From NCBI GenBank assembly GCA_022843125.1, contig JALHOG010000004.1, positions 67,001 through 131,000 on the forward strand: a DNA stretch of 64,000 nt. Direction: 5' to 3'. Position numbers and translations under genes: made by a program. The notes under the pieces were generated by a model. The model saw only the letters and a program-made list of their open reading frames with translations, was not told the DNA's origin and made no database searches. Of the stretch, positions 6,678-16,890 are shown in pieces. Origin of the DNA: Ilumatobacteraceae bacterium. Its GTDB lineage: Bacteria; Actinomycetota; Acidimicrobiia; Acidimicrobiales; Ilumatobacteraceae. The first letter of the stretch is position 1, and each line of letters starts with the position of its first letter.

Positions 6678-9569
<2,892 letters not shown>

Positions 9570-9576
9570 CCGCCCG

Positions 9577-10539
9577 ATGATCACGCGCGACCTCGACCTC
9601 GCGCTCGACCGTCTGCGACACGGCGGGCTCGTGGCGATCCCGACCGAGACGGTCTACGGGCTCGCGGCCGACGCCGAGCAGCCCGACGCCGTCCATCGCA
9701 TCTTCGCAGCGAAGGGCCGACCGGCCGATCACCCGCTGATCGTGCACCTCGCAGGGATCGAGGCAGCGGACGGATGGATCGATCCGTCCGCCGACGACCG
9801 AGTGCTCGGATGGGTCGCAGCGCTCGCAGCGGCGTGTTGGCCTGGCCCGCTGACGATGCTCGTGCCGCGTGGGCCGCGCGTGCTCGACGCCGTCACCGGC
9901 GGACGCCCCACGGTCGGGATCCGGGTACCCGCGCACCCGCTGACGCTCCAACTCCTCGAGCGGCTCGCCGGCGGGTTGGCCGCTCCGTCCGCGAACCGGT
10001 TCGGACGCGTCAGCCCGACGACCGCGGCCCACGTCCTCAGCGATCTCGCCGGCCATCTCGACCCGGAGCGAGATGCGATCCTCGACGGCGGCGCATGCCC
10101 GATCGGCGTCGAGAGCACCATCGTCGACCTCACCGTGACCCCGCCTCAGGTCTTGCGCTCCGGCGGGATCGACGCTGCCGACATCGCGCGCATCCTCAGC
10201 ATCGAGGTCACGGGCGCATCGGGTCCGAGCCGCGCGAGCGGCATGCTGATCGCGCACTACGCGCCGGCGTGCGAGGTGGTGGTCGTCGACGACGCAGCGG
10301 CGGCGGCGATCGAGGTGGCGAGCAGGCAGGGGCAGCGTGTGCGCGTGCTCGACCGCACCGACGATCTCGTCACCGCCGCGAGGGAGCTGTACGCCGACCT
10401 GCGACGTGCCGACGACGATGGGCTCGACGCGCTGGTTGCGGTGCTCCCGCCGGCGGAGGGTCTCGGCCACGCGCTGCGTGACCGGCTCGTCAAGGCGTCG
10501 GTGGGGAGCCGCCGAGATCGGCCCAATCCAGCTGGTTGA
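9577..10539 (+). CDS. Sua5-type threonylcarbamoyl-AMP synthase
   Basis: A 320-residue L-threonylcarbamoyladenylate synthase of the Sua5 (two-domain) type. It makes threonylcarbamoyl-AMP from threonine, bicarbonate and ATP for the t6A modification of ANN-decoding tRNAs. The YrdC domain shows PTETVYGLAADA, KGRPADHPL and SANRFGRVSPTTA. A C-terminal Sua5 domain follows from about residue 215 (SGMLIAHYAPACEVV). The ATG chosen is just upstream of the domain; the longer open frame runs back into the hydrolase gene in another reading. The last 50 bases overlap the convergent J-domain gene. Confidence 0.92.
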   Translation: MITRDLDLALDRLRHGGLVAIPTETVYGLAADAEQPDAVHRIFAAKGRPADHPLIVHLAGIEAADGWIDPSADDRVLGWVAALAAACWPGPLTMLVPRGPRVLDAVTGGRPTVGIRVPAHPLTLQLLERLAGGLAAPSANRFGRVSPTTAAHVLSDLAGHLDPERDAILDGGACPIGVESTIVDLTVTPPQVLRSGGIDAADIARILSIEVTGASGPSRASGMLIAHYAPACEVVVVDDAAAAAIEVASRQGQRVRVLDRTDDLVTAARELYADLRRADDDGLDALVAVLPPAEGLGHALRDRLVKASVGSRRDRPNPAG

Positions 10540-11071
10540 GCCCGCCGATCCAGGCGTCTCGCACCGCGTCGAGGTCGGGCGGCGGTGCCCCGGGTTCGCC
10601 GGCCACGACGAGGCTCACGGTGCTCGCGCCGGCGTCGGGCACCAGTTCGAGGCGGCACCATCCCTGGTACGGCGGTGCCATCGCCACCTCGAGCGCGTAC
10701 GGCGGGTCGTCGTCGATCAGGTCGCCCATCCACCCAGCGACGATCAGCAGACCTTCGAACGCCTCGACCGGCAAGGCCTCGATCGTGAACGAAGGATGAT
10801 CACGGCGAGCGAACCGCGGGCCGGGTGCCGGTTGCGGTCGCGGGGCCCGGCCCCTGGGCGGAGCGTCGCGCAGGGTCGGAGCGATGAGGCGGCGCAGCGC
10901 TTGGTCGGCGGCGGCGTTGATCCGCTGCATCGCCTCGAGGGAACCACCCACGTCGGGATGCGCCGATTTCGCAAGCGCGCGGCGTGCCGCTTCGATGTCC
11001 TCAACTGACGCTGAGGGTGGCAGTCTGAGCACTGTAAGTGGGTCTGGATTGCCGTCTCGCCGTCGAGCCAC
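10490..11071 (-). CDS. J-domain protein
   Basis: A 193-residue protein with a short N-terminal J-domain (residues about 12-62). It contains the HPD tripeptide (38-40) that stimulates DnaK-type Hsp70 ATPase. The remaining 130 residues have no glycine/phenylalanine region or zinc-finger domain, so this is a class III J-protein; the client-binding part is not recognised. The GTG start is 8 bases downstream of a TACGGT hexamer. Its 3' end overlaps the end of the Sua5 gene by 50 bases in the opposite direction, an unusually long convergent overlap for this window. Confidence 0.75.
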   Translation of the reverse strand: MARRRDGNPDPLTVLRLPPSASVEDIEAARRALAKSAHPDVGGSLEAMQRINAAADQALRRLIAPTLRDAPPRGRAPRPQPAPGPRFARRDHPSFTIEALPVEAFEGLLIVAGWMGDLIDDDPPYALEVAMAPPYQGWCRLELVPDAGASTVSLVVAGEPGAPPPDLDAVRDAWIGGLNQLDWADLGGSPPTP

Positions 11072-11078
11072 GGCTCCG

Positions 11079-11084
11079 ACCGTA
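11079..11084 (-). promoter_or_regulatory. -10 hexamer TACGGT, leaderless start
   Basis: On the minus strand TACGGT ends 8 bases before the GTG of the J-domain gene. Confidence 0.5.
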
Positions 11085-11116
11085 ACGCGACGTTCACGCC
11101 TCGAATGGCTGGGTGG

Positions 11117-11196
11117 TTGTCCGCTCCCGAATCTTCGTCCTACGCTTGCTCCACCTAAGACGCCGGGGCAATCCCGCCTCGCCGAAACAGGGGGAG
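11117..11196 (+). promoter_or_regulatory. Promoter and strong RBS of the binding-protein gene
   Basis: TTGTCC (11117-11122) and TACGCT (11141-11146) are separated by 18 bases and resemble a housekeeping -35/-10 pair. They are followed by an untranslated leader of about 55 bases. GGGGAGA at 11190-11196 is a Shine-Dalgarno sequence about 10 bases before the ATG. This leadered arrangement contrasts with the leaderless neighbours and fits a highly expressed binding protein. Confidence 0.6.
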
Positions 11197-11206
11197 AACC
11201 ACCACA

Positions 11207-12643
11207 ATGCAGACATCACGTGTGCGCCGCGTAGGCGCTCTGCTGGTCGGCCTCGCTCTCGTGACCGCCGCATGCGGCGACGACGAAGAGGCAACGACCG
11301 CGACCACCGAAGCAGCGGAAGCCACCGACGCTCCAGCAACCACCGACGCTGCCCCGGAAGCGACCGACGCTCCCGCAACCACCGCCGCCCCCGAGACCAC
11401 TGCCGCTCCCGCGACCACGGCCCCCGCGGCCGGTGGCGGCGAACTCGCCGGCATGAAGGGCACCACACCCAAGGGCGCCGATGTGTCCGCGTGGATCCCG
11501 GCCGTCGACGAGTTCTGGCAGGCCGAAGGCAACGACGCCCTGGAAGACTTCAACTACGCCGCCGAGTCCTACGACGCGGTCGTCGTGATCGCGCTCGCCG
11601 TCCACAAGGCCGGCACCGACGGGTCGGCCCACGCCGGCGAGATCGTCGGGATCACCGGCGAGGGTGAGGCGTGCACGAGCTTCGTCGAGTGCCGCGACAT
11701 CATCGATGCCGGTGGCGACCCGGACTACCAGGGCGTCTCGGGCCCGCACGACTTCAACGGCAACGGTGAGCCGCTCAAGGGCTCGTACGCCGTGCTCACC
11801 TTCGGTGACGACAATCGCCTCACCGACGAAGAGGTCCTGGTCGAGGCCGAGGCTCCGGCTTCGGCGATCGTCGACCTCATCCTGCCGCAGGTCGAGCGTG
11901 AAGGCGATGGCGTCCTGACGATCGGCTCCATCCTGCCCGAGACCGGCAGCCTCGCGTTCCTCGCCGCCCCGATGTTCGCCGGTGTCGAGTTCGCGATCGC
12001 CGAGATCAACGAGGCCGGTGGCGTGCTCGGTAACCCGATCGCATACACCCAGGGCGATTCGGGCGACACGTCGACCGACACCGCAACGGTCACGGCGACC
12101 CGCCTCCTCGGCGAGGGCGTCGACGCGATGGTCGGCCCGGCATCGTCGGGTGTGGCGCTCACCATCATCGACCAGGTGACCGCCGCAGGCGTCACGCTGT
12201 TCAGCCCCGCCAACACCAGCCCGGCGCTGTCGGGCTACGACGACAAGGGCTTCTACTTCCGCAACGCTCCGGCCGACGGCCTGCAGGGTGCGATCGTGGC
12301 CAACCTGGTCGCGGAGGACGGCAACGCTTCGGCGTACATCCTCAACCTCGACGATGCGTACGGTAACGGCATCGCCGAAGTCGTCGCCTCGGTGCTCGAG
12401 GAGTCGGGTGTGACGGTTCTCGGTCAGAAGGCGTACGACCCGACCGCAGCGTCATTCGACGCCGAGGTCGCCGAGATCGTCGCCGCCGACCCGGACGCCG
12501 TCATCCTCATCTCGTTCGACGAGGGCTCGCGCATCCTGCGCACCGCCGTCGAGCAGGGTGTTGGCCCGACTGCCAAGAACTACTACGGCACCGACGGCAA
12601 CATGGGCAATGCGCTCGGCGAGAACTTCGACGCCGGCGAGTGA
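11207..12643 (+). CDS. ABC transporter substrate-binding lipoprotein, circularly permuted
   Basis: A 478-residue binding protein of the branched-chain amino acid (Peripla_BP_6/LivJ-like) family. A signal peptide ends in the lipobox TAAC (C23), followed by a Thr/Ala/Pro-rich linker to about residue 78. The family's normal order is then reversed. Residues 79-217 (ELAGMKGTTP, AAESYDAVV, the C156/C162 pair, DYQGVSGPHDF) match the C-terminal segment of the family. Residues 233-478 (VLTIGSILPETGSL, the VGPASSG loop, FSPANTSPALS, YGTDGNMGNALGENF) match the N-terminal and central part, and the protein stops exactly where the C-terminal segment should begin. All structural blocks are present once, so a folded protein is plausible. 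It faces livF and ends at a strong terminator. Confidence 0.88.
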   Translation: MQTSRVRRVGALLVGLALVTAACGDDEEATTATTEAAEATDAPATTDAAPEATDAPATTAAPETTAAPATTAPAAGGGELAGMKGTTPKGADVSAWIPAVDEFWQAEGNDALEDFNYAAESYDAVVVIALAVHKAGTDGSAHAGEIVGITGEGEACTSFVECRDIIDAGGDPDYQGVSGPHDFNGNGEPLKGSYAVLTFGDDNRLTDEEVLVEAEAPASAIVDLILPQVEREGDGVLTIGSILPETGSLAFLAAPMFAGVEFAIAEINEAGGVLGNPIAYTQGDSGDTSTDTATVTATRLLGEGVDAMVGPASSGVALTIIDQVTAAGVTLFSPANTSPALSGYDDKGFYFRNAPADGLQGAIVANLVAEDGNASAYILNLDDAYGNGIAEVVASVLEESGVTVLGQKAYDPTAASFDAEVAEIVAADPDAVILISFDEGSRILRTAVEQGVGPTAKNYYGTDGNMGNALGENFDAGE

Positions 12644-12673
12644 CCCAATGGGGTCGTGACCCCGAGTACTGAC

Positions 12674-12704
12674 AGCGGCCCCCGGGACAAACCCGGGGGC
12701 CGCT
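12674..12704 (+). terminator. GC-rich hairpin terminator
   Basis: GCGGCCCCCGGG (12675-12686) and CCCGGGGGCCGC (12692-12703) pair perfectly around the loop ACAAA, with a further A-T pair at the base. There is no long T-run. It lies 31 bases after the stop of the binding-protein gene. Confidence 0.85.
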
Positions 12705-12720
12705 TCGCGGGCGGGCTCAT

Positions 12721-12779
12721 CGACGACATGCGGCTGGACGACACGCGGCTCGACACATGCGGCTCGGCGACACGCGGCC
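12721..12779. repeat. Degenerate 15-bp tandem repeat
   Basis: Four units of 14-15 bases (CGACGACATGCGGCT, GGACGACACGCGGCT, CGACACATGCGGCT, CGGCGACACGCGGCC) lie downstream of the terminator. No function is apparent. Confidence 0.6.
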
Positions 12780-12837
12780 GGTCCCAGCACGCGCCGGGTC
12801 GATCGCATCGGCGTTCTGCCGGCGAACGGAGGGCGCG

Positions 12838-13661
<824 letters not shown>

Positions 13662-13662
<1 letters not shown>

Positions 13663-14546
13663 CACTCGTCCTCCAACAGCGAGCGGCCCTGGTGGGCGCC
13701 CAGGTAGGCGTCGATCACGTCCTGGTTCGACGAGATGTCGTCCGGGGTTCCCTCGGCGATCACACGACCCTCGGCCATGACGATCACCCAGTCGGAGATG
13801 TCGTGGACCATGTCCATGTCGTGCTCGACGAACAGCACGGTCATCCCCTCGTCGCGCAGGCCGCGGACGTGCGCATTGAGACTCTGCTTCAGTGCCGGGT
13901 TCACGCCTGCCATCGGCTCGTCGAGCATGACCAACGTCGGGTTGGTCATCAGCGCTCGTGCCATCTCCAGCAGCTTGCGCTGGCCCCCGGACAGCGCGCC
14001 CGCGTACTCGTCGCGCATGTGGTCGAGCTTGAACCGCTTCAGCAGCTCGTCGGCGCGAGCCTCGATCTCGGCCTCCTGCTGCTTCCAGATCGCGGGGAAG
14101 AGCCCGTTCCACCACTTCTCGCCCTTCTGGCCGGTGGCTCCGAGCTTCATGTTCTCGATGACGGGCAGCTTGGTGAGGCTCTTCGTCAGCTGAAAGGTGC
14201 GCACCATGCCGCGAGTGGCCATGCGGTGGGGCGCCACACCATCCATCGACTGCCCGTCGAAGGACCACGCACCCGCGTTCGGCTCGTCGAAGCCGGTCAC
14301 GAGATTGAAGAACGTGGTCTTGCCCGCTCCGTTCGGCCCGATGAGCGCCGTGATCGACCCACGTTGCACCTCGACATGATCGACGTCGACGGCGGTGATG
14401 CCGCCGAAGTTGCGCCGGATCCCGGACGCCTTCAGGATCGGGTCGGGCTTGGGCGCGCCGGGCACGGGCGAAACACCGGCGAGCGCAGCGCGCGCCTGGC
14501 GAGCCGCCTCGGTGAGTTCGGCAGGGGCGGCGTCAGCGTCCTTCAA
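13662..14546 (-). CDS. livG: ABC transporter ATP-binding protein LivG
   Basis: A 294-residue ATPase partner of LivF. Walker A is GPNGAGKTT, the signature is LSGGQRK, Walker B is LVMLDEPMAGVNP, and the His-loop is FVEHDMDMV. A polar, alanine-rich N-terminal extension of about 40 residues precedes the domain. The start is a TTG inside the end of livM (14-base overlap). An AAGGAG sequence 9 bases before it on the minus strand supports that choice, although internal starts after the extension are possible. Confidence 0.9.
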
Positions 14547-15543
14547 AAGCCATCTCCTTGCGATTGCCGAACAGACCCTGCGGGCGGAAGACCATCAGCG
14601 CGACGAGCAGGCCGCCCATCACCATGAACACGATCGCACCGATGTCGGTCGACTCGATCAATGTCGTGCCGAAGAGACGGAACGGCTGATCGATCAACTG
14701 CCGGAGCAGGCTGTCGAGGAAGGCGAAGATGAACCAGAACAGCATCGGCCCGACGATCGACCCCGTGACCTTGGCGACTCCGCCCAGCACGAGGCCGGTG
14801 AGGATGAAGAACGTCAGGTCACGGCTGTAGTTGTCGGGCTGCACGTTCGCGTTGCCGAGAGCGAGCATGATGCCGGCAAAGCTCCCGATCACGCCGCCGA
14901 GCACCAGCGCCTGCATCTTGTAGGAGAACACGTTCTTGCCGAGGCTGCGCACGGCGTCCTCGTCTTCACGGATCGCCTTGAGCACGCGACCCCATGGGCT
15001 CTTCATCAACAGCCACACGATCACCCCGAAGATCGCGACCAGCGTCCACCCGACGATCAGGTTCCAGAGGTTGCGGCCGCTGAAGGTGAAGATCCAGAAG
15101 CCGTACTGTGAGGCCGGACGCAGGCCGAGGTCGACGCCGACCTGCTGGAACGAACTCGCGAATCCGGTGAGGCCGTCGGTGCCACCGAAGGCGTCCTTTG
15201 CGGCCACCGACCGCACCACCAACCGCACGATCTCCGCGGCCGCGATCGTCACGATCGCTAGGTAGTCGGCGCGCAGACGCAGGGTCGGAACACCCATCAG
15301 GAGGCCGAGGAAGACCGAGTAGCCGACCGCTACGCCGATGCCCCACCACATCGAGATGCCGAAGATCGGCACGGTCTGGCCGATCCCGTAGGCCCCGGCG
15401 GCCATGAAGCCTGCTTGGCCGAAGTTAAGCAGGCCGGTATAGCCGAACTGCACGTTCAGTCCGATCGCGGCGATCGCGTAGTAGCACGCGTTCAGACCGA
15501 TGAACTGGAGGATCGCTGTTTCGAGCACTGCACCGATGTCCAT
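14533..15543 (-). CDS. livM: ABC transporter permease LivM
   Basis: A 336-residue inner-membrane permease of the HAAT family with about nine to ten hydrophobic helices. The typical early sequence LNVQFGYTGLLNFGQAGF and the cytoplasmic coupling loop AIREDEDAVRSLGKNVFSYK are both visible. An AGGAGG ribosome binding site sits 6 bases before the ATG. It is separated from livH by 9 bases and overlaps livG, so the four transporter genes form one operon. Confidence 0.93.
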   Translation of the reverse strand: MDIGAVLETAILQFIGLNACYYAIAAIGLNVQFGYTGLLNFGQAGFMAAGAYGIGQTVPIFGISMWWGIGVAVGYSVFLGLLMGVPTLRLRADYLAIVTIAAAEIVRLVVRSVAAKDAFGGTDGLTGFASSFQQVGVDLGLRPASQYGFWIFTFSGRNLWNLIVGWTLVAIFGVIVWLLMKSPWGRVLKAIREDEDAVRSLGKNVFSYKMQALVLGGVIGSFAGIMLALGNANVQPDNYSRDLTFFILTGLVLGGVAKVTGSIVGPMLFWFIFAFLDSLLRQLIDQPFRLFGTTLIESTDIGAIVFMVMGGLLVALMVFRPQGLFGNRKEMAFEGR

Positions 15544-15552
15544 CGCCGCCTC

Positions 15553-16890
15553 CTAACCGACTCGCTGGGCTCGGCCGAGGATGCCCTGCGGGCGGACGAG
15601 CAGGATCAGGATGAGGATCAGCAGGGCTGGTGCGGTCTTGAGTTCGGTCGGCACCCCGACCAGAGTCGATGTCTCGACGAGGATGCCGACGACGAAGCCG
15701 CCGACCAGAGCGCCATACGCGCTGCCGAGCCCGCCGAGGGTGATCCCGGCGAACATGAGGAACAGCAGCGCCGTCCCCATGTCCCAGGAGACCTGCTCGT
15801 CGAGACCACGGAACACCCCGCCCAGAGCAGCGAGTGCGCCGCCGGTGATCCAGATCAACCGGATGACCTTGGCGCTGTCGATCCCGGTCGACGAGGCCAG
15901 GTCGACGTTGTCGCTGACGGCCCGGGTGGCCTTGCCGAGCCGTGTGTATTGCAGGGTGAGCGCCACCGCCACGAGCACGATCGCCGCGAGGATCGTCACG
16001 GTCAGGTCACGCATGGTGATGGTGATCGGCCCGATCTGCTGGCCGACCTGGTTCGTGTAGTTCAGGAACGGCTTGTCGCGGCCGCCGAAGTACCACAGGA
16101 AGAGGTTCTTCAACATGATGGACAGGCCGAGCGTGATCACCATCTGCGAGATGAGGCCCATGCCGCGTCGACGGAACTGCTGGAAACCGACCTGGTTCAA
16201 GAAGTAGCCGAAGGCTCCGCCGGCGATGACAGCGAGAGGCGCCGCCAGCAGGATGTGGAGCCCAGCGCTGTTGAACCCGTACGCCACCATCGCACCGAAG
16301 GTCACCATCTCGCCGTGGGCGAAGTTCGTGAGGCCCGTCGTCCCGAAGATCAGCGACAGACCGACCGAGCACATCGCGATGATCAGGCCGAGCCGCACGC
16401 CGTCGGCGAAGCGCTGCGCGACCTTCTCGATCTGGCTGACCTCGGCGCTCTGGCTCTGGCCGGTGAAGAAGTTGACGATCTTCCTCGACGTCGTGAACGA
16501 GTCGCCGCTGACCGTCGCCGGGCTGGGTGTATCGGGCGACAGGGCCAGGCCGTCGGGGAGCGTGTCCTCGTCGATCTGGACGACGTAGTCGGCCCGGCCG
16601 GGCACTGGGATGAGCGCGAAACCTTCGTCGTTGGTCACCCCGGTCGCAACCTCGGCGCCGTTCGCATCGAGCACCACGACCGACACGCCAGGGACCGGTT
16701 GGTTGTCGGCCCGGCCGTTCTCGTCACGCTGCTGATCCTTCACCTGGACCTGGAGCGACACCTCGTCCTGCGCCTGAGCGACCGAGGACCCGGAGAAGGC
16801 GGCGAGGGCCACGAAGAGCAGAGCGGCGGCTCGGAGGAACCAGCGTGGCGCACGTGCGTGGAATGGGGTCCCCCCGACCTGCGTCGTCAT
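15553..16890 (-). CDS. livH: ABC transporter permease LivH with extracytoplasmic beta-sandwich domain
   Basis: A 445-residue LivH permease, about 140 residues longer than usual. Residues 1-40 look like a signal peptide or first membrane helix ending in VAQAQ. Residues about 45-125 (GVSVVVLDANGAEVATGVTNDEGF) resemble a carboxypeptidase-regulatory or transthyretin-like beta-sandwich. The permease begins near residue 155 with the family sequence FGTTGLTNFAHGE and runs to RPQGILGR. The extra domain should lie outside the membrane, where the binding protein docks. A TAGAGT hexamer 10 bases before the ATG includes the TAG stop of ctaA, suggesting a separate promoter for livHMGF. Confidence 0.9.
   Translation of the reverse strand: MTTQVGGTPFHARAPRWFLRAAALLFVALAAFSGSSVAQAQDEVSLQVQVKDQQRDENGRADNQPVPGVSVVVLDANGAEVATGVTNDEGFALIPVPGRADYVVQIDEDTLPDGLALSPDTPSPATVSGDSFTTSRKIVNFFTGQSQSAEVSQIEKVAQRFADGVRLGLIIAMCSVGLSLIFGTTGLTNFAHGEMVTFGAMVAYGFNSAGLHILLAAPLAVIAGGAFGYFLNQVGFQQFRRRGMGLISQMVITLGLSIMLKNLFLWYFGGRDKPFLNYTNQVGQQIGPITITMRDLTVTILAAIVLVAVALTLQYTRLGKATRAVSDNVDLASSTGIDSAKVIRLIWITGGALAALGGVFRGLDEQVSWDMGTALLFLMFAGITLGGLGSAYGALVGGFVVGILVETSTLVGVPTELKTAPALLILILILLVRPQGILGRAQRVG

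Follow-up and report, generated by a model that had tools for sequence, protein, structure and literature searches.

Natural circular permutation is often visible only across a deep, single split. For Type I substrate-binding proteins, one natural precedent was found in the open-access literature, TpMglB-2 (Tp0684) of Treponema pallidum, a permuted protein for which the designation 'Type Ic / Cluster Bc' was proposed (PMC4990184). TpMglB-2 belongs to the glucose-binding MglB family, the first three strands of its N-lobe have moved to the end of the chain, sequence identity is poor in the moved part, and the permutation is also reported for relatives from Gram-positive bacteria (PMC4990184). 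Engineered permuted halves of a Thermotoga ribose-binding protein indicate that Type I lobes tolerate permutation (PMC9815098), and the accessible text of another paper (PMC9732360) deals with permuted GFP only. No description of permuted LivJ-type proteins was found in the open-access literature, a scope that leaves subscription papers largely outside, nor was a natural permutation found in the open-access literature on the NeIle sensor and OpuAC.

Here we describe a LivJ/Peripla_BP_6 lipoprotein in which the normally C-terminal block (C-block) stands before the normally N-terminal and central block (N-block). Its gene lies at 11207–12643 of a 64-kb stretch of DNA, referred to as the window. 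Like LivJ/LivK-type proteins of the HAAT family (PF13458), the encoded protein shows homology over both blocks, has LivFGMH-type partners, and yields a high-confidence model in which the longer block aligns with structures of the LivJ type. Unlike them, it has a rotated chain in which ~240 normally leading residues come last, an extra linker at the junction, and new termini that presumably lie in the C-lobe. With TpMglB-2 it shares the natural permutation of a lipid-anchored Type I protein (Type I by homology in the present case). In contrast to that protein, it moves the whole N-block of ~240 residues, with a break in the loop before KGTTP, belongs to the HAAT rather than the MglB-like sugar family, and has good identity in both blocks, close linear relatives, and repeated origin. 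It also differs from the Thermotoga halves, which are designed single lobes (PMC9815098), in being natural. Natural permutation of a Type I protein is thus already known from TpMglB-2; the break position, the family, the wide distribution, and the repeated origin are new here.

Chain order of the gene at 11207–12643

The permuted gene (11207–12643, + strand) encodes 478 residues and carries the break that we call site A, as judged from Pfam order, homologues, and an AF2 model; a putative ribosome-binding site, GGGGGAG, can be read at 11190–11196 (+). A lipoprotein signal peptide (11207–11275, +) ends in the lipobox VTAAC, which the first-pass annotation had called intact and which is readable in the sequence. 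Its cysteine, Cys23, is nearly invariant, being present in at least 90% of the 12 permuted proteins compared. A low-complexity Thr/Ala/Pro linker (residues 24–78; 11276–11440, +), whose length varies between relatives, leads into the C-block (residues 79–218; 11441–11860, +), which is delimited by the ANF_receptor match and by the C-block of linear relatives. The junction linker between the old C-terminus and the old N-terminus (residues ~216–236; 11852–11914, +) is recognised by its clade-specific sequence and in the AF2 model, where residues 139–160 of the model hold no helix of 4 and no strand of 3 residues. The N-block (residues 237–478; 11915–12640, +) completes the chain.

The order of the blocks is evident from Pfam. 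Peripla_BP_6 (PF13458) matched with an E value of 1.2e-35, scoring 124.3 bits where 31.7 is the cut-off, its profile positions 2–218 corresponding to residues 237–455. When residues 1–237 were scanned alone, ANF_receptor positions 268–350 of 353 corresponded to residues 110–199 (E 8.9e-8); Peripla_BP_5 was the remaining family matched. The C-part therefore comes first and the N-part second, not in the canonical order of Peripla_BP_6, and this rotation identifies the protein as a permuted descendant and not a standard member of that family. In a sequence search of the PDB, the best matches fell in the second half of the protein, and sugar-binding protein names were absent among the matches listed (60 of 76). 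The cut itself is a clean one. Where a linear relative has ..GNALGEQFDDEGALEGMRGTTP.., the window protein stops at ..GNALGENFDAGE and begins again at ..GGELAGMKGTTP. At E <= 0.01, the 64-kb window yielded no further copy of either block. These results bear out the first-pass annotation in its statements that the block order is swapped, that the protein ends exactly where the moved block would join, and that no extra block copy lies nearby. Since homologues with the same order occur in many genomes, chance is excluded as its cause.

Other details of that annotation fared less evenly. The C-block cysteine pair that it pointed out, C156/C162, is real and is invariant in the 12 permuted proteins compared, but linear relatives have cysteines at the same place too, so the pair is no mark of permutation. 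A promoter of the gene's own, as had been claimed, is only partly supported, with 0 sigma-70-like matches in 10900–12900.

Two break sites and the predicted fold

The break occurs at one of two places among the relatives. At site A, that of the window, the chain ends in ..DGNMGNALGENFDAG and the new start is LAGMKGTTP. At site B, ~22 residues earlier than site A, the chain ends in ..NAQGIGPQR and the new start is VNVYGTDGNMGNALGEDF..LAGMRGTTP. Site A is carried by Acidimicrobiia, including the window, and by Nitriliruptoria (Salsipaludibacter); site B is carried by Geodermatophilaceae, by Nocardioides donggukensis (one sequence), and by the family labelled f113, which is probably Pseudonocardiaceae. 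In the site-A model, site B would fall in the loop between helix 363–372 and strand 381–384 and site A in the loop between helix 391–399 and strand 7–11, while the site-B model has its first strand at 4–8 and its last helix at 386–395. As modelled, sites A and B are two consecutive alpha-to-beta loops. The letters around the breaks agree with the trees described below: junction linker sequences differ by clade, in the same groups, and the site-B locus L147 shares DGNTAD-YS at the break with the linear locus L171. The likeness at the break of the site-A loci L133 and L136 to linear L077 and L079 is weaker than that between L147 and L171.

AF2 gave a pLDDT of 93.7 and a pTM of 0.88 for site A (44 aligned proteins, namely 43 site-A relatives and the window protein) and a pLDDT of 90.6 and a pTM of 0.91 for site B (17 site-B proteins). 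The best PDB matches in Foldseek were LivJ-type leucine or amino-acid-binding proteins. Their alignments covered 245 (site A, 401-residue model) and 224 (site B) columns of ~400 residues at TM ~0.5, partial values of the kind that sequential alignment is expected to give for a chain in rotated order. In PDB searches with a site-B protein and a linear protein, no listed chain spanned both site-B blocks in its best stretch. The fold is predicted to be the ordinary two-lobed Type I clamshell, whose lobes we take to be those known from the LIV-binding protein. On that assignment, the permutation would shift the tether to the edge of the C-lobe and add a further hinge crossing. This reading draws on the lobes of the LIV-binding protein and on a similar description of TpMglB-2 (PMC4990184).

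Distribution and transporter context

The first search for relatives covered 61 genomes, 55 of which matched at E <= 0.001, and yielded 30 loci, 12 permuted and 18 linear. Of 221 genomes in the family to which the window belongs, 83 matched at E <= 1e-80, and the C-block ran into the N-block at every listed place but one, as read from the match table. A stand-alone N-block in this search (G126:C136) was considered as an intermediate and rejected, since the contig (4739 bases) ends there and the gene is cut. In a sample of the order, 48 of 397 genomes matched at E <= 1e-60, 19 of the 48 in permuted form; in a sample of the phylum, 55 of 396 matched at E <= 1e-40, 8 of the 55 permuted (both counted from rows). 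From 547 loci, 80 named ones were kept, and among the matches listed 77 of these 80 have a permuted ORF and three (L154, L157, and L160) only a linear one, a ratio in which linear relatives are under-represented because the query was permuted. Permuted named isolates include Modestobacter caceresii, Geodermatophilus sabuli DSM 46844, and Salsipaludibacter albus AS10. Four MAGs titled Bifidobacterium breve or Ferrithrix (L083, L092, L093, and L135) carry genes of the Ilumatobacteraceae-type clade, and their titles may be wrong.

The wider set of 243 loci held 113 site-A, 52 site-B, and 79 linear ORFs, with 4 truncated permuted ORFs and 1 unclassified ORF left out; because some genomes are present twice, the distinct ORFs number 80, 48, and 74, respectively. 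An Arthrobacter match (L184) has only a 257-residue N-block ORF and stayed unclassified. In f113, 99 of 121 genomes matched at E <= 1e-40; a permuted span was counted from rows in 85 of the 121 and a linear form only in 14, the break being read in the ORF itself for 10 proteins (L201–L204 and L229–L234) and otherwise taken from the table span. A second family, f141, is Geodermatophilaceae, given that the Modestobacter caceresii protein has a 100% identical counterpart in its genome G1163. In the order common to f113 and f141, 67 of 200 genomes matched at E <= 1e-50, of which 47 had the permuted and 20 the linear form (counted from rows). The family of genome G928 had matches in 9 of 35 genomes at E <= 1e-60, two of them with the site-A form. 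Among 251 plasmid records, none had 80% of the query matched at any single place, and the two best were inspected. Identity between permuted and linear N-blocks reaches ~60–70%. The closer linear relatives (L013–L024 and L072–L080) are ~46–59% identical in the N-block and ~38–51% in the C-block, with lower values for the second copies in L077/L078.

These counts bear on several points raised by the first-pass annotation. The natural circular permutation that it proposed, with the break at a loop, is supported, and the same order in related genomes, which it suggested looking for, is found in the family and among the named loci. It had treated the gene as a lone oddity; the permuted chain is instead a fixed form common to many Actinomycetota, and a second break site exists in other families. 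The order is standard for a subfamily, but a description of that subfamily, which the annotation would have counted against its reading, was not found in the open-access literature.

A partner LivFGMH ABC transporter is present at 12838–16890 of the window, its genes named by homology and gene order. It comprises a LivF-type ATPase (12838–13560, - strand, start approximate, with the frame open over 12838–14268), a LivG-type ATPase (13662–14546, -), a LivM-type permease (14533–15543, -), and a LivH-type permease with an N-terminal extension (15553–16890, -), the last three named from homology among loci and gene order. Folding places a hairpin, a possible terminator without a T tract, at 12674–12704 between the convergent binding-protein and LivF genes, and the stretch 12640–12720 folds with a z of -5.5. 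This GC hairpin separates the two convergent transcription units and is a candidate bidirectional terminator. Of the terminator announced by the earlier annotation, what stands is this very strong hairpin (~12674–12704), whereas T-tailed terminators number 0.

The same arrangement is widespread. Among the matches listed, the permuted gene lies tail to tail with LivF, its nearest Liv gene, in 62 of the 77 permuted named loci, and Liv genes were not seen in 13 of the 77. The Nitriliruptoria loci L133 and L136 have the binding-protein gene divergent from LivH. The three linear named loci among the matches listed comprise two convergent with LivF and one without a visible Liv gene. In 19 further loci, 13 of 16 linear genes are convergent with Liv genes, those of L260 and L261 are on the same strand, and one has no Liv gene. 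At the site-B loci L254, L255, and L262 (f113), Liv genes were not recognised within ~7 kb on either side; the neighbourhood of L254 encodes 3-hydroxyacyl-CoA dehydrogenase, polysaccharide deacetylase, and methyltransferase domains.

To the left of the window's permuted gene lie what we take, from sequence likeness, to be IMPDH-like, hydrolase, Sua5-like, and DnaJ-domain genes. When window 7330–16890 was compared with the same-genus genome G009 (L249) and with G026 (L246), the window's flanking genes were found in both around a linear binding protein. Identity between G009 and the window is 82% for the IMPDH-like neighbour, 51% for LivH, and 48% for LivM. With like flanks, a linear binding protein in G009, and divergent LivFGMH genes, the two species differ in the entire cassette, a difference that may reflect exchange or differential loss of old paralogues.

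Origins of the permuted form

Trees were built after permuted chains had been re-ordered by script and aligned with linear ones. Rows were thinned at 80% identity, later at 72% for a 65-row tree, and long-branch rows were removed (8 in the earlier tree, 9 for the 65-row tree, and 2 more in the larger AU set). Three trees agree on a main site-A clade, a separate Nitriliruptoria site-A lineage, a site-B clade, and the outlier L147. In the 65-row tree, the main A clade has support of 100/99; the site-A loci L133 and L136 (Salsipaludibacter albus; Nitriliruptoria) stand beside linear L019/L077/L079 (95/90); main B together with one linear row, L173, has 100/100; and site-B L147 falls among linear rows (98/82). 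Linear L173 lies beside or inside main B. The main B clade without L173 appears in the best tree of the 79-row set (97/85) and is not rejected in the larger set (p 0.26).

A tree of LivHMGF, which uses no binding-protein sequence, was made from 35 loci, two of them site B, that were left when 78 loci holding three or more of these genes were thinned at 80% identity. It groups L147 (B) with linear L252/L253 and L142 (B) with linear L251, each at 100/100, and places L136 (A) inside a mostly linear set of 18 rows (97/94) in which its nearest neighbours are weakly supported. Fourteen main-A loci lie on one side of a branch (93/88), and two site-A loci, L122 and L134, stand among linear ones. This placement, and the support of only 93/88 for the main-A branch, suggest that cassettes may have been exchanged.

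One ancient permutation, spread by horizontal transfer with a shift of the breakpoint and some reversions to linear order, would account for several of these observations. Neither data set rejects a clade of main A and main B (p 0.068 in each), which leaves room for a single event there with a later break shift; two site-A loci stand among linear ones in the transporter tree; and at one locus within a genus the binding protein and LivFGMH differ together, an indication that exchange or differential loss happens. We nevertheless consider this history unlikely. In AU tests with 79 rows, a single clade of all permuted rows was rejected (dlnL 126, p 1.1e-7), as were single clades of all site-A rows (p 0.0019) and all site-B rows (p 0.0004), values that are somewhat optimistic because the groups to be tested were defined once a first quick tree had been inspected. 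Moreover, L147 has break letters in common with linear L171, and the transporter genes group L147, L142, and L136 with linear loci. More than one origin of the permuted form in Actinomycetota is strongly supported; we count three origins or more, with four as our best estimate.

The genome, a 183-contig draft, might suggest a misassembly or a chimera of two paralogous genes, but the order recurs across the family (83 of 221 genomes), the named loci (77 of 80, among the matches listed), and single-contig f113 genomes such as G791, and no second block copy lies in the window; we rejected this extremely improbable explanation. An origin by joining blocks of two distinct binding-protein genes is raised by the Treponema authors for the moved part of TpMglB-2 (PMC4990184). 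It is very unlikely here, given that the N-block and the C-block are of a single subfamily and diverge in step (rho 0.67 between their identities over 2080 pairs), and that the linear relatives ranking near the top for one block of L133 and L136 do so for the other block as well. The three f113 loci without recognised Liv genes over ~7 kb on each side could instead point to a present role as a sensor or regulatory binding protein rather than in import. Such a role is quite unlikely for a gene that faces LivF both in the window and in 62 of the 77 permuted named loci among the matches listed, as most linear relatives do.

We favour, with a probability of roughly 0.85, a permuted binding protein that partners LivFGMH, has kept its fold, and has been permuted repeatedly at sites A and B, likeliest by tandem duplication and outer loss. 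The protein would serve the convergent LivFGMH-type ABC importer (HAAT family) as its lipid-anchored substrate-binding subunit. In its chain the ordinary termini are joined via the ~20-residue linker, and the new termini lie in the loop between helix NALGENFD and strand KGTTP, presumably in the C-lobe. An amino acid or related ligand would be caught between the lobes and passed to LivH/LivM as in linear relatives, with LivF/LivG powering import. The lipid tether would enter at the C-lobe edge, not at the first N-lobe strand. Whether at least four separate permutations occurred, always at one of two consecutive C-lobe alpha-to-beta loops that would form a hot spot, possibly under selection for moving the tether away from the N-lobe to the edge of the C-lobe, we judge to be an evenly balanced question.

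Permutation by duplication and partial deletion, the route that we infer, would begin with tandem gene duplication and fusion, after which the first N-block and the last C-block would be lost and the signal peptide retained. Among the ORFs at the 243 loci that match the N-block and reach 100 residues or more, no fused duplicate in one ORF was flagged. Several tandem arrangements were observed: a linear pair in L244; three linear genes in L183 (4294–9592), in a Nonomuraea record filed as an 11.85 Mb plasmid that is likely a chromosome; a permuted pair in L128 (1–4000), the first member of which is truncated where the contig begins; and a pair of permuted matches in G236:C22 (10685–13252). By a reading of its sequence, L026 (283–2622) seems to have another binding-protein-like domain preceding a linear member in one ORF. 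The existence of tandem binding-protein genes means that tandem duplication occurs, which does not by itself prove the route.

For annotation, the finding means that profile-based methods report permuted proteins as partial matches, and for biosensor engineering it marks loops where nature opens the Type I clamshell. Within the family, permuted and linear forms coexist among close relatives, once in the same genus and at the same chromosomal locus. Close permuted and linear pairs with repeated origins make the route of the permutation, its cost, and its reason, be it tether position, hinge mechanics, or docking to LivHM, directly testable.
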